From Alphaproteobacteria bacterium (GTDB lineage Bacteria > Pseudomonadota > Alphaproteobacteria > Micropepsales > Micropepsaceae), in assembly GCA_020852655.1 (NCBI GenBank), contig JADZAI010000103.1, positions 1-64,000 on the forward strand: a DNA stretch of 64,000 nt, read 5' to 3'. The notes beneath the pieces are model-generated. The model worked only from the letters and a program-made list of their open reading frames with translations, was not told where the DNA came from and ran no database searches. Positions within the stretch are counted from its first letter, which is position 1. Every line of letters starts with the position of its first letter. The position numbers were made by a program, and so were the translations under genes. This document shows positions 49,117 through 59,177 of this stretch, one piece after another.

Positions 49117-49806
49117 TCAAGTCCGCCGCGGCCAGGATTGCGCACGGGCGCCGCGCACCATCACAGGCGCCAGGAACAGGCCGGCAAGAAAGCCCCCGAT
49201 ATGCGCCATGGTCGCAATCCCGCCGAGCGGGCTGCCGCCTATCTTTTCCCACAGGAAGAAGGCGAGGTTCAGTCCCAGCCAGAACAGCGCAAACGACGCA
49301 ACCGGACCTCGCGTGATCGGCGCGACGATTTCGCCCTGCGACAATTTGCGGGTGCGGTAACGCAGGGCTGCCGCCAGCAGCCCGCCGACGCCGCCCGATG
49401 CGCCGATCACCGTCGCCGGTTCATTCCAATAGACTGCGACATGCAAGACCCCGCCCGCGATCACGCAGACGGCAAAGAGCAGCCACATCCGCACCGCGCC
49501 GCAATTGCGCATGACCGGTCCGCCCGCCGCGAGCAGGAAGGCGACGTTGAAGGCGACGTGCAGCCAGTCATAGTGCAGAAACCCATGAGTCAGCAGGTTC
49601 GAGAAGGCGAGCGCAACGACATCGGCCTGGTCGAGCAGGAACTTGGTCGGGACCAGGCTGAAAGTCTGGTAGATCCATCCCTTCCAATAGATCGGCACCA
49701 GCGACACCAGCGCATGGATCGCAACGAACGTCCCCGCAAAAGCGGGAACCGGCCACGGCACGAGGAAGAGCGGCTCGGCGCGACGGTTCAGGAAAGGATC
49801 GCTCAA
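49117..49806 (-). CDS. Rhomboid family intramembrane serine protease
   Basis: GASGGVGGLLAAAL (catalytic Ser) and AHIGGFLAGLFLAP (catalytic His). Confidence 0.9.
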   Translation of the reverse strand: MSDPFLNRRAEPLFLVPWPVPAFAGTFVAIHALVSLVPIYWKGWIYQTFSLVPTKFLLDQADVVALAFSNLLTHGFLHYDWLHVAFNVAFLLAAGGPVMRNCGAVRMWLLFAVCVIAGGVLHVAVYWNEPATVIGASGGVGGLLAAALRYRTRKLSQGEIVAPITRGPVASFALFWLGLNLAFFLWEKIGGSPLGGIATMAHIGGFLAGLFLAPVMVRGARAQSWPRRT

Positions 49807-50408
49807 GACTGGCTCGTCAATGCGGCTTCGACGAGCGGCAGACGATCATTGCCGAAATACATGTCGTCGCCGATGAACATGGTGGGCGAGCCGAAGCCGC
49901 CTCGCGCGATCACCTCGTCGGTCGCTTCGCGCAGCCGCGCCTTGTTCGCCGGGTCGTCCAGTGCATCGAGATAGGCCGCGCCGTCGAGGCCGACGCTCTC
50001 GGCGCACCGGCGCAGCACGTCCCGCTGCGAGATATCCTCGTTGCGGCCCCAATAGGCCTCGAAGACTTCTTTTGCGTAGGGAACGAGCTTGCCCCGGTCG
50101 AGCGCGTAGAAAGCGCCGCGCATGGCCGACACCGAATTGACCGGAAAGACCGACGGCGGCCAGGTGATCTTCACGCCGCAGAGCTTCGCCCAGTCCTGCA
50201 TGTCCTTGTTGTAGTATGTGCGCTGGCGCGGATCGGGGTTTGCGCGCTTCTCGTAGAGCTGCTGGTTCACCGCGTTGAAGACGCCGCCGACGAGAATCGG
50301 CCGCCACACGATGGTGGCGCCGGTACGCTCTGCGACCGCCTGCACCCGCGCGAAGGCGAGGTAGGTCCACGGGCTCGAGCAGTCGAAGAAGAACTCCAGC
50401 TTTTTCAT
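49803..50408 (-). CDS. 2-hydroxychromene-2-carboxylate isomerase (DsbA-like)
   Basis: MKKLEFFFDCSSPWTYLAF, GGVFNAVNQQ, RGGFGSPTMFIGDDMYFGNDRLPLVE. Confidence 0.92.
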   Translation of the reverse strand: MKKLEFFFDCSSPWTYLAFARVQAVAERTGATIVWRPILVGGVFNAVNQQLYEKRANPDPRQRTYYNKDMQDWAKLCGVKITWPPSVFPVNSVSAMRGAFYALDRGKLVPYAKEVFEAYWGRNEDISQRDVLRRCAESVGLDGAAYLDALDDPANKARLREATDEVIARGGFGSPTMFIGDDMYFGNDRLPLVEAALTSQS

Positions 50409-50602
50409 CACAGGACCTCGCCAGGCAGCGGGTAAGGTAAACGACAATTCGCCGCCCTGCGCAAATGCGTACGGGAATGGAGCATTGCGGGGCAATTCCG
50501 GCCGCTCGCACCGCGTTGAAGATGCGCCGCCGCGAGAACGTCAACTTCGCATTCACCATCGTGTTCCCCGCGCGCACTCGCTTCGGAGCGCGATAGGACG
50601 AA

Positions 50603-50656: not shown

Positions 50657-51085
50657 ATGACTGCTCGCTCCGCATTGCTATCTTCCGTCGCCGCGATCGC
50701 GGTGCTCTCGCTTTCCGTCGCGACCATCGCTTCCGCGCAGGTCGTGCGCCGTTCGTCCGGCGACGGCGCCGATGTGATGGCGCGTCCTTACGGCACGACG
50801 CCGGGTGAGGAAAACCAGCCCATGGTCGGTTCGACCCGCGACGCCAGCGGCAACCGCGTCATCGTCAACGGCATGTATGTCAACGGCGGTACCTACTCCA
50901 GCCAAGACGGCCTGACCTACGGCGTCGGCCGCCGGAATTCGTCGAGCGGCGTGAACGCCAGCGTCATCGGCAACTCGCTGAACGTCGTCGTTGCCGGCAA
51001 CAACAACGTCGTCGTCGTCAATTCGCACCAGGACAACTCGGGCAATCAGACCGTGGTCCTGAACGGGGGGCTGAACCTTGAATAA
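50657..51085 (+). CDS. hfaA: Holdfast anchor protein HfaA
   Basis: Signal peptide; RRSSGDGADVMARPYGT..., Asn-rich C-terminus SVIGNSLNVVVAGNNNVVVVNSHQDNSGNQTVVLNGGLNLE; immediately upstream of hfaB. Confidence 0.85.
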   Translation: MTARSALLSSVAAIAVLSLSVATIASAQVVRRSSGDGADVMARPYGTTPGEENQPMVGSTRDASGNRVIVNGMYVNGGTYSSQDGLTYGVGRRNSSSGVNASVIGNSLNVVVAGNNNVVVVNSHQDNSGNQTVVLNGGLNLE

Positions 51086-52100
51086 GACCCACACCACGGG
51101 CCGCGCCCGCCGCTTCGCCGCAAAGCCGCTGGCTGCCCTCATGGCCGCTGCCACCATGCTGGGCGCCTGCGTCAGCCCCGTCGCCGGCTCGGACGGCCGC
51201 TATGCGGTGCCCATCGGCACGGCGCCGGTCGTCTCGAACGAAACACCTTACTCCGCCTCGCTGCGCTGCATGGCCGGCCACATGATGTCTCAGCGCCGCC
51301 CGCTGCGGATCGCCGTCGGCCAGATCGCCGACTACACCGGCAAGGAAGAATACGAGGGCGGCCGCCGCGTGACGCAGGGTGCCGCGCTGATGGCGATGTC
51401 GGCCCTCGCGAAGACGGGCGCCGCGCTGGTCGAGCGCTTTGACACCTCGGTCGCCGAGCTCGAGCTCAAATATGCCAACAACCGGTTGATCGGCAACGGC
51501 ACGCCCGACCAGAGCTTCCGCACGATCACGGCCGGCCAGTTTCCCGGTTCGGATTTCTACCTCGTCGGCGGCATCACCGAGCTGAACTACAACATCCGCT
51601 CGGTCGGCGCAGACGCCTTCGGCTCCGATCCCGCCGAGACCGGCGCCAAGGGACAGATGGGCTACAAGGCGTATGTGATGAACGTGGCGATCGACATGCG
51701 CCTGGTGAACACGAACACGCTCGAGGTCGTGGACGTCATCTCCTACCAGAAGCAGATTATCGGCCGCGAGATTTCGGCCGGCGTGTTCGACTTCCTCAAC
51801 GGCACGATCATCGACGTCGGCGTCGGCGAGCGCGCCCTCGAGCCGATCCAGCTCGCGGTGCGTACCGTGATCGAACGCGGCGTACTGGAGATGATCTCGC
51901 GCCAGATCGGCGTCGATCCGGCTTCCTGCGGCGGCAAGGACCCTCTGGCGGCCGAGGGAGAGATGAGGGCCCCGCCGCCGGTGAAGCGCGCGATCGCCGA
52001 CCGCCGTGTCGTCGAAGCGAAGCGCGCCGATCCTTATGCGGGCTATTCGAGCAGCGACCCGAACGCCGACCTGCCGAAGCTGCGCGACTCGGTCGACTGA
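51078..52100 (+). CDS. hfaB: Holdfast anchor lipoprotein HfaB (CsgG family; TTG start)
   Basis: Lipobox MLGAC; RIAVGQIADYTGKEEYEGGRRVTQGAALMAMSALAKTGAALVERFDTSVAELELKYANN; VVDVISYQKQIIGREISAGVFDF. Confidence 0.92.
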   Translation: MNKTHTTGRARRFAAKPLAALMAAATMLGACVSPVAGSDGRYAVPIGTAPVVSNETPYSASLRCMAGHMMSQRRPLRIAVGQIADYTGKEEYEGGRRVTQGAALMAMSALAKTGAALVERFDTSVAELELKYANNRLIGNGTPDQSFRTITAGQFPGSDFYLVGGITELNYNIRSVGADAFGSDPAETGAKGQMGYKAYVMNVAIDMRLVNTNTLEVVDVISYQKQIIGREISAGVFDFLNGTIIDVGVGERALEPIQLAVRTVIERGVLEMISRQIGVDPASCGGKDPLAAEGEMRAPPPVKRAIADRRVVEAKRADPYAGYSSSDPNADLPKLRDSVD

Positions 52101-52125
52101 TCAGAAGCCAACCAGCAGAGATTGA

Positions 52126-52155
52126 AGAAGCGCCTCTGAAGGGCGCTTCTTTTTT
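52126..52155 (+). terminator. Intrinsic terminator after hfaB
   Basis: AGAAGCGCCtctgaaGGGCGCTTCTttttt. Confidence 0.88.
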
Positions 52156-52290
52156 GCGCGCACCGCAGGCCTGTACCGAAATGGAATTCGTTTAGGTTAC
52201 CGCAGGCGTCTGGCACAGGTGTCGTTGCTGGAACCTCAAAAGTAACCATTGCCACCCGCCCAATCCGCAGAGGTGCTTCCGAACACCGCA

Positions 52291-52306
52291 TGGCACGCAG
52301 GTTGCT
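52291..52306 (+). promoter_or_regulatory. Predicted sigma-54 (RpoN) -24/-12 promoter of the 222-aa repeat-protein gene
   Basis: TGGCACGCAGGTTGCT: full match to TGGCAC-N5-TTGCW with GG-N10-GC spacing. Confidence 0.82.
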
Positions 52307-52381: not shown

Positions 52382-53050
52382 GTGAACAAGACGAAGACCA
52401 TCCTAGCCGCGACCGTTGCGGCGTTCGCCGTGAGCGGCATGGCCAAGGCCGACTCCGAGTACAATGTCGACGGCTTCACCGTGCTCGCCAACAACTGGCA
52501 GTATAATTGGAGCACCGTTTTCGCCCGCGCGGTATTCTCGGGCTTCAACATCGCCGGGGACTTCAAGGCCTCGACGGTCTCGATCGGCAACAACTGGATC
52601 TCGGAAACGGACGGCTCAACCCGCATCCTGAACCAGCAGACCCAGCTCGCCGATCTCGGTTCGACGACGAAGGGTCCGCTGACCAATGTCGGCGGCAATG
52701 TCGATCTGTCGGCCGCTACGATCTGCAACAACGCGTCGATGACGACCGGCCACTCGGGCAAGGTCTCGATCGACAACGTGCAGAAGTGCAATACGACCGA
52801 TCCGTTCGCCGTTGTCGGCCTGGCCGGCAACAGCATCGGCGGGAACATCGACCTGTCGGCGACGACAATCGCGAACAACGTCTCGGTCGATGCGCAGACG
52901 GCAGGTGCCTGGTTCGGCAACACTCAGGCCAACCCGGCCAACGTCTACGCCGCGGTCGAAGTCGACCTGAACAATGTCGGCGGCGACGTGAACGCGACGG
53001 TTGCCGCGGTCGGCAACAACGCGACCTTCAAGACGAAATTCACGCCGTAA
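52382..53050 (+). CDS. Secreted Asn-rich four-repeat protein, candidate holdfast-anchor/amyloid-like subunit (GTG start)
   Basis: Signal peptide MNKTKTILAATVAAFAVSGMAKA; core repeats NIAGDFKASTVSIGNN, NVGGNVDLSAATICNN, SIGGNIDLSATTIANN, NVGGDVNATVAAVGNN at residues 56, 102, 151, 198. Confidence 0.85.
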   Translation: MNKTKTILAATVAAFAVSGMAKADSEYNVDGFTVLANNWQYNWSTVFARAVFSGFNIAGDFKASTVSIGNNWISETDGSTRILNQQTQLADLGSTTKGPLTNVGGNVDLSAATICNNASMTTGHSGKVSIDNVQKCNTTDPFAVVGLAGNSIGGNIDLSATTIANNVSVDAQTAGAWFGNTQANPANVYAAVEVDLNNVGGDVNATVAAVGNNATFKTKFTP

Positions 53051-58178: not shown

Positions 58179-59177
58179 CTAGTTGCCGATGCCGCCGGTC
58201 AGCTCCAGGCCGGTCAGGTCGACCACATCGCCGCCGGGGCCATAGCCTGCTCCGTCGTCATAGCCGCCGGCGATCTCGGCGTCGTAGCCGCCATATTCGC
58301 GGGCGAGTTCACGCTCGGCGGCGCGGCTCATCGGGCGCTTGGCGGCGCAGACGAGTTCGCCCGAGCCGGTACGGATCAGGGCGTCGCCGCTGTCGCAGTC
58401 CTTGTAGGAGGTGCCGTCGCCGGTGCGGACCGAACCCACGATGTCGGCGGCGCCGCTGTCGTAGCTGACGCGGAGCATCTGATCGCCCTCGCAGCGGAAA
58501 ACTTCGCCGGCATAAGCGTCGTCATCGCTGTCGCCCGTGCTCAGGATCGCGAGATGCTCGTTGCCCTTGCCGTCGAGGCAGATGGCGCTGAAGGTCTCGC
58601 TGCGGCGGGCGGTGGTGACGTGGAGCTGTCCGAGTTCCTCGGTGCGCTTCTCCTGGATCACGACGACCGTGGTCGAGCGGCGCGGAACCAGGAAGGTCTC
58701 GGTTCGGCCATAGGGGACGTAGCGGACCTTTTCCTTGTCGTACGGCTTGTGCTCGTGCTTCGGCGGCTTGTGTCCGCCGTGATCGTCCTTGGGCGGCTTG
58801 TGGTCGCCCTTGCCGGCGACCTTGTCCCCCAGCGGACCGTGGCCGAAATCGCGGTCGCCAAGGCGCTCGTGACGCCGGTCGCGGTCGCCGCCGCGTTCGG
58901 CTTGGCGCGCGATCGCCTCCGCCGCCCAGAAGCCGGTGCCGAAGAGGGTCGCGCCGCCGTCATAGGGCTGGCCGTAATAGAAGCCGAAGTCCGACCCGCG
59001 ATCCGGGACCGGCAAAGCCGTGCCGCGCCCATTGCCCCAGAGGCCATGGCCGAAGGCGTTGCCGCGATTCGTATAGGCCTTGTCGAAGCCGCCCATGCTG
59101 TCCTGGGCTGTGGCGGGACCGAATGTCGCGCAGCCCAGCGTGAAGACGGTGGCGGCGAGGAGACGGGAGATACGCAT
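58179..59177 (-). CDS. Secreted hypothetical protein with His/Lys/Pro-rich linker
   Basis: Signal peptide MRISRLLAATVFTLGCATFGPATA; GDHKPPKDDHGGHKPPKHEHKPYDKEK segment; C-terminal globular region. Confidence 0.75.
   Translation of the reverse strand: MRISRLLAATVFTLGCATFGPATAQDSMGGFDKAYTNRGNAFGHGLWGNGRGTALPVPDRGSDFGFYYGQPYDGGATLFGTGFWAAEAIARQAERGGDRDRRHERLGDRDFGHGPLGDKVAGKGDHKPPKDDHGGHKPPKHEHKPYDKEKVRYVPYGRTETFLVPRRSTTVVVIQEKRTEELGQLHVTTARRSETFSAICLDGKGNEHLAILSTGDSDDDAYAGEVFRCEGDQMLRVSYDSGAADIVGSVRTGDGTSYKDCDSGDALIRTGSGELVCAAKRPMSRAAERELAREYGGYDAEIAGGYDDGAGYGPGGDVVDLTGLELTGGIGN

Follow-up and report, generated by a model that had tools for sequence, protein, structure and literature searches.

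The stretch of DNA analysed here (64,000 nucleotides, referred to below as the window) carries hfaA and hfaB and, behind them on the same strand, an open reading frame of 222 codons for a candidate HfaD-type secreted repeat protein, here called D. The features on which the argument draws are the following.

50552..50563, plus strand: upstream box TTCACCATCGTG before the sigma-54-type element of hfaA
50603..50618, plus strand: sigma-54-type element TGGCATATGCGTTGCA before hfaA, a perfect match to the pattern, kept before hfaA in the family
50657..51085, plus strand: hfaA (NF037934, 73.4 bits, cut-off 50)
51078..52100, plus strand: hfaB, CsgG-type outer-membrane channel (NF037935, 375 bits, cut-off 300; PF03783)
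52124..52155, plus strand: intrinsic-terminator-like hairpin with T-run directly 3' of hfaB (direct folding, -23 kcal/mol, z -3.0)
52242..52253, plus strand: upstream box GTAACCATTGCC before the D element, common to the hfaA promoter and resembling the CtrA half-site TTAACCAT
52291..52306, plus strand: sigma-54-type -24/-12 element TGGCACGCAGGTTGCT before the D gene, a perfect match
52382..53050, plus strand: D gene, 222 aa (open reading frame, homologues, HfaD model at ~25 bits)
52382..52450, plus strand: predicted Sec signal peptide of D, residues 1-23 (MNKTKTILAATVAAFAVSGMAKA, followed by an Asp residue), by eye
52547..52594, plus strand: repeat core 1, residues 56-71, NIAGDFKASTVSIGNN
52685..52732, plus strand: repeat core 2, residues 102-117, NVGGNVDLSAATICNN
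52832..52879, plus strand: repeat core 3, residues 151-166, SIGGNIDLSATTIANN
52973..53020, plus strand: repeat core 4, residues 198-213, NVGGDVNATVAAVGNN

Both neighbours that an earlier note on this DNA had named, hfaA and hfaB, score above the cut-offs of their curated models. The same note had placed D downstream of HfaB. The two genes are indeed adjacent, at a distance of 281 bp, but a terminator-like hairpin stands between them and D apparently has a promoter of its own. The other four genomes of the query genus likewise have a hairpin of this kind behind hfaB; the general terminator scan left that of the window unflagged and direct folding revealed it. Because of this hairpin, D is probably a transcription unit apart from hfaAB, although it is adjacent to them. 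The locus is flanked by glycan genes encoding a UDP-glucose/GDP-mannose dehydrogenase, a GDP-mannose dehydratase and WbsX, and the glycan gene region also encodes a protein of 332 aa whose start resembles a signal peptide (58179-59177, minus strand) and for which Pfam gave no match. On the minus strand, 5' of hfaA, lie two genes, one for a rhomboid protease and one for a DsbA-like protein (49117-49806 and 49803-50408); the DsbA-like gene is found beside hfaA in other genera as well, and a role in anchor maturation is conceivable.

The D gene starts with GTG, a start supported by a GGGAG of ribosome-binding type upstream and by homologues in the same frame. The signal peptide claimed previously was recognised by eye as a signal-peptide-like N-terminus, and in the family alignment it lines up with the ATG-started signal peptides of relatives. 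The four 16-residue copies described at residues 56, 102, 151 and 198, with a period of 46-49 aa, were recovered in exactly that register: their sum-of-pairs BLOSUM62 score of 253 is the highest among all registers with 44-51 spacing and lies 16.9 SD above shuffles of the mature part (31.3 +/- 13.2, maximum 77, 400 shuffles). The full repeat unit spans ~47 aa (..NxQ-x(~18)-NVGGDVxxxxxAIGNN-x(~13)-xNxQ), and with an HMM of this unit, trained on the family, D gives four matches that sum to 115 bits while its reversed sequence gives none. Asparagine accounts for 27 of the 222 residues.

An AlphaFold2 model of D, built with two sequences (pLDDT 78.9, pTM 0.78), predicts a regular all-beta repeat whose recurring pattern is a strand of 11-12 residues, a turn at GG, a second strand of 16 residues and a third, short strand; the nucleated beta-solenoid suggested earlier is a candidate fold. 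For a relative of 29% identity the prediction is strand-turn-strand four times over, at lower confidence (56.6). The Pfam search of D returned nothing, the PDB sequence search gave a single, irrelevant match, and Foldseek found no solved structure in the PDB matching the D model at E<=0.001.

HfaD is a surface protein that helps to fix the holdfast, a sugar-based glue, to the cell. The HfaD model NF037936 matches D at ~25 bits (E 1.1e-5), under its cut-off of 100; D is its only match in the genome (24.8 bits), relatives of D are also matched, and the reversed D sequence is not. D may accordingly be called HfaD-like, while formally it falls under the NF037936 cut-off. The profile comparison with HfaD that had been proposed as a check supports this designation: by hhalign the D family aligns with full-length HfaD at probability 94 and score 59.3 over 185 columns, against a maximum of 18.8 in 40 column-shuffled controls and 12.2 for the reversed profile, all hhalign scores given here being single profile-profile comparisons and not database searches. 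A D profile from the query genus alone is too thin for this purpose (probability 12), and the unit HMM finds nothing above noise in full-length HfaD, whereas the whole-family profile does match. The D family and HfaD have two end motifs in common, [IV]LNxQ[ILV][NQ] after the signal peptide, of which the query carries the degenerate version VLANNWQYN, and A[VI]GN[NST]A at the C-terminus.

In the taxonomic family, hfaB is present in 70 of the 96 genomes searched, HfaD above the curated cut-off in none of the 96, and weak HfaD-model matches like that of the query in 29. When the query D was compared with all open reading frames of the hfaB loci, a relative was found behind hfaB in nearly all of them. 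Its start lies 80-89 nt within hfaB in 31 of the 36 family loci where both genes could be placed, one f121 genome, from a different family, has an overlap of 80 nt, and coordinates of two genomes with full-length HfaD give an hfaB/hfaD overlap of 74 nt. Because this overlap is common to the relatives and to genomes with full-length HfaD, this position behind hfaB corresponds to that of hfaD. The overlapping genes are read in different frames, and the overlap is unusually long and conserved (for example L025:6920-7005). Across 385 genomes of the class, seven matches were obtained at E<=1e-5, five of them directly behind hfaB and two in a single genus with no hfaB in the stretch read. A four-unit D-like protein occurs in genomes of another family, f80 (L090, L091; also L110, L111), with no hfaB in the adjoining stretch read; two weak genome matches, L020 and L021 (a TonB-receptor-like protein), were dismissed as chance.

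The query genus lacks the overlap. Gaps of 281 bp (G000) and 296 bp (G002) separate hfaB from D, and G001 and G004 carry them on separate contigs, with D among sugar-nucleotide genes of rml/gmd type. No D gene was found in G003, which is listed as 100% complete and in which hfaB stops 187 bp from a contig end. Distances between D proteins track those between HfaB proteins (Mantel r 0.80, permutation maximum 0.44), as expected for co-inheritance. To judge from the pair G001 and G004, which are 93% identical in HfaB, 81% in HfaA and 40% in D, D diverges fast, much faster than its two neighbours.

The earlier note had left open whether D is a short divergent HfaD or a new subunit. Position, overlap, end motifs, profiles and promoter favour the first option, and the verdict is that D is most probably of a known kind, a short HfaD-type variant, and not a new family. 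In this taxonomic family, the genes of ~220 aa that lie behind hfaB and score under the HfaD cut-off can from now on be called HfaD-like.

The best-surviving rival reading, which we nevertheless regard as unlikely, takes D for a subunit of curli-like amyloid fibres. D would then be the principal fibre protein that HfaB secretes, and the fibres would form independently of the holdfast polysaccharide. Asn/Gln/Ser-rich beta repeats behind a CsgG-type channel and the regular all-beta repeat predicted by AlphaFold2 would suit such a protein, and HfaA multimers have been described as amyloid-like (PMC6707917). The best Foldseek match to the D model is itself a functional amyloid, FapC, but this match is insignificant (E 0.047, TM-score 0.12) and was rejected. 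No curlin or Fap model in Pfam matches D at E<=1, and D is present as a single copy beside hfaA, in the position of HfaD.

The short HfaD-type reading draws further support from the promoter. The sigma-54-type pattern TGGCAYN5TTGCW, with GG-N10-GC spacing, occurs twice in the window (0.06 expected), and these two sites, before hfaA and before D, are the only ones in the whole 3.95-Mb genome. As chance alone would provide a few sites per genome, it is the location of the two sites, and not their number, that is telling. The only two sites of G001 likewise precede hfaA and D, even though separate contigs carry these genes; the same holds for two of the three perfect sites of G002, and G004 has a perfect site before hfaA and one with a single mismatch before D. 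In the family, a perfect site precedes hfaA in 29 of 32 loci and the element is also found before hfaA in two f121 genomes; near hfaA in the two genomes with full-length HfaD there is no site within one mismatch. Presence of the element in two families and its absence from these two genomes suggest that lineages differ in how the anchor is controlled. With rpoN in all but one of the five genomes of the query genus, the query genome included (the exception is 88% complete), pattern, spacing and sigma factor gene together mark the element before D as a putative sigma-54-type promoter, from which we infer actual sigma-54 control of hfaA and D.

Among the nine elements in the query genus, eight have a box TTMACCATCGTS at 37-49 bp on their 5' side, and the ninth (D of G001) has a weak match; the box score of 96 against a shuffled maximum of 76 is optimistic, the consensus having been picked after inspection. 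Counts of GATTC/GAATC upstream are not enriched. A palindrome of the type CTTAAC-N(4-6)-TTAAG, a possible operator, lies immediately 5' of the hfaA element in L027 and L033, and another perfect sigma-54-type element occurs near the end of fliI, just before a fliJ-like gene, in two genomes of the query genus (L115:1501-1516 and G002:C1:1654884). No paper linking sigma-54 to hfaABD was found in a literature search that missed a 1999 study, reportedly on the regulation of hfaA.

The shared promoter element also bears on a second rival, that D is a surface-glycan protein, associated with a capsule or S-layer, which was recruited beside hfaAB and has no role in the holdfast. The setting of D among glycan genes, the relatives in G004 and G001 beside rml/gmd-type genes away from hfaB, and an evolution so much faster than that of HfaA and HfaB would all agree with it. 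D nevertheless overlaps hfaB in the rest of the family, and D and hfaA have the promoter element in common even when they are unlinked, which makes this reading improbable. That D is a degenerate, truncated HfaD without remaining function, as its half length and low sequence conservation might suggest, is very improbable given that most of the family keeps to a length of ~220 aa, that signal peptide, repeats and C-terminus are retained, that the promoter element is conserved and that no frameshift is present.

A link to HfaA emerges from the repeat unit. The D family aligns by hhalign with the HfaA C-terminal core at probability 95 and score 60.6 (shuffled maximum 20.1, reversed 15.6), and the HfaA alignment was checked to contain no D sequence. 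HfaA against full-length HfaD scores 22.8 with a shuffled maximum of 20.2, which is marginal, and the link to HfaA therefore rests on the short D family. Since the D repeat matches the HfaA core, the comparison suggests that D may template HfaA assembly via the common unit.

Taken together, the position and overlap relative to hfaB, the match to the HfaD model, the profile similarity, the end motifs and the common sigma-54-type promoter lead us to propose, with a probability of about 0.8, that D is a short subunit of HfaD type, with four repeats, in the holdfast anchor, acting as follows. Sec would take D across the inner membrane and the CsgG-like HfaB channel across the outer one, and D would be retained on the cell surface. 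There its four stacked beta-arch units could offer a site for the assembly of HfaA, which carries one related unit, and the resulting layer of HfaA and D would retain the holdfast polysaccharide. In the query genus the ancestral hfaB/hfaD overlap is lost, a terminator-like hairpin stands behind hfaB, and D has a putative sigma-54-type promoter to itself; with this copy of the promoter, both transcription units could still be co-expressed.

Work on Caulobacter has placed HfaA and HfaD on the surface, with both dependent on HfaB and with HfaD required for HfaA multimers; the way in which the two keep a polysaccharide attached to the outer membrane has yet to be explained (PMC6707917). A wider proposition, which we put forward tentatively and hold to be possible though doubtful, is that HfaA and HfaD-type proteins share one beta-arch unit (one in HfaA, four in D, more in HfaD), that D nucleates HfaA at the HfaB pore, and that the anchor of this order forms a small sigma-54 regulon. 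If this is true, D lost its coupling to hfaB in the order and acquired a promoter copy for itself, and its fast divergence and glycan-gene setting reflect matching to a particular holdfast sugar. At half the size of HfaD, with four repeats and a unit common to HfaA, D is a small, defined object for structural work, and the common unit makes it possible to test directly whether HfaA is templated by D.

Among known systems, D most resembles Caulobacter HfaD (NF037936): both are secreted, are encoded behind hfaB, begin with an [IV]LNxQ-type and end with an AVGNxA motif, and consist of repeated beta-type units. HfaD is longer, at 416-418 aa (374 model positions) against 222 aa, about half, and forms a longer array than the four units of D; in the query genus, moreover, D forms its own putative transcription unit with a sigma-54-type element. 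HfaA resembles D in its C-terminal core (xVNGQ...TAIGNxLNVV...VIVNSxQ), which matches one D repeat unit, and in its promoter element, but it carries a single unit of this kind and differs in its N-terminal region. The likeness to CsgA/CsgB and FapC, which lies in export by a CsgG-type channel (curli) and in short Asn/Gln-rich beta repeats, is one of analogy only: D lacks a curlin match in Pfam at E<=1, and its repeat measures ~47 residues, whereas that of curlin measures 22-23.
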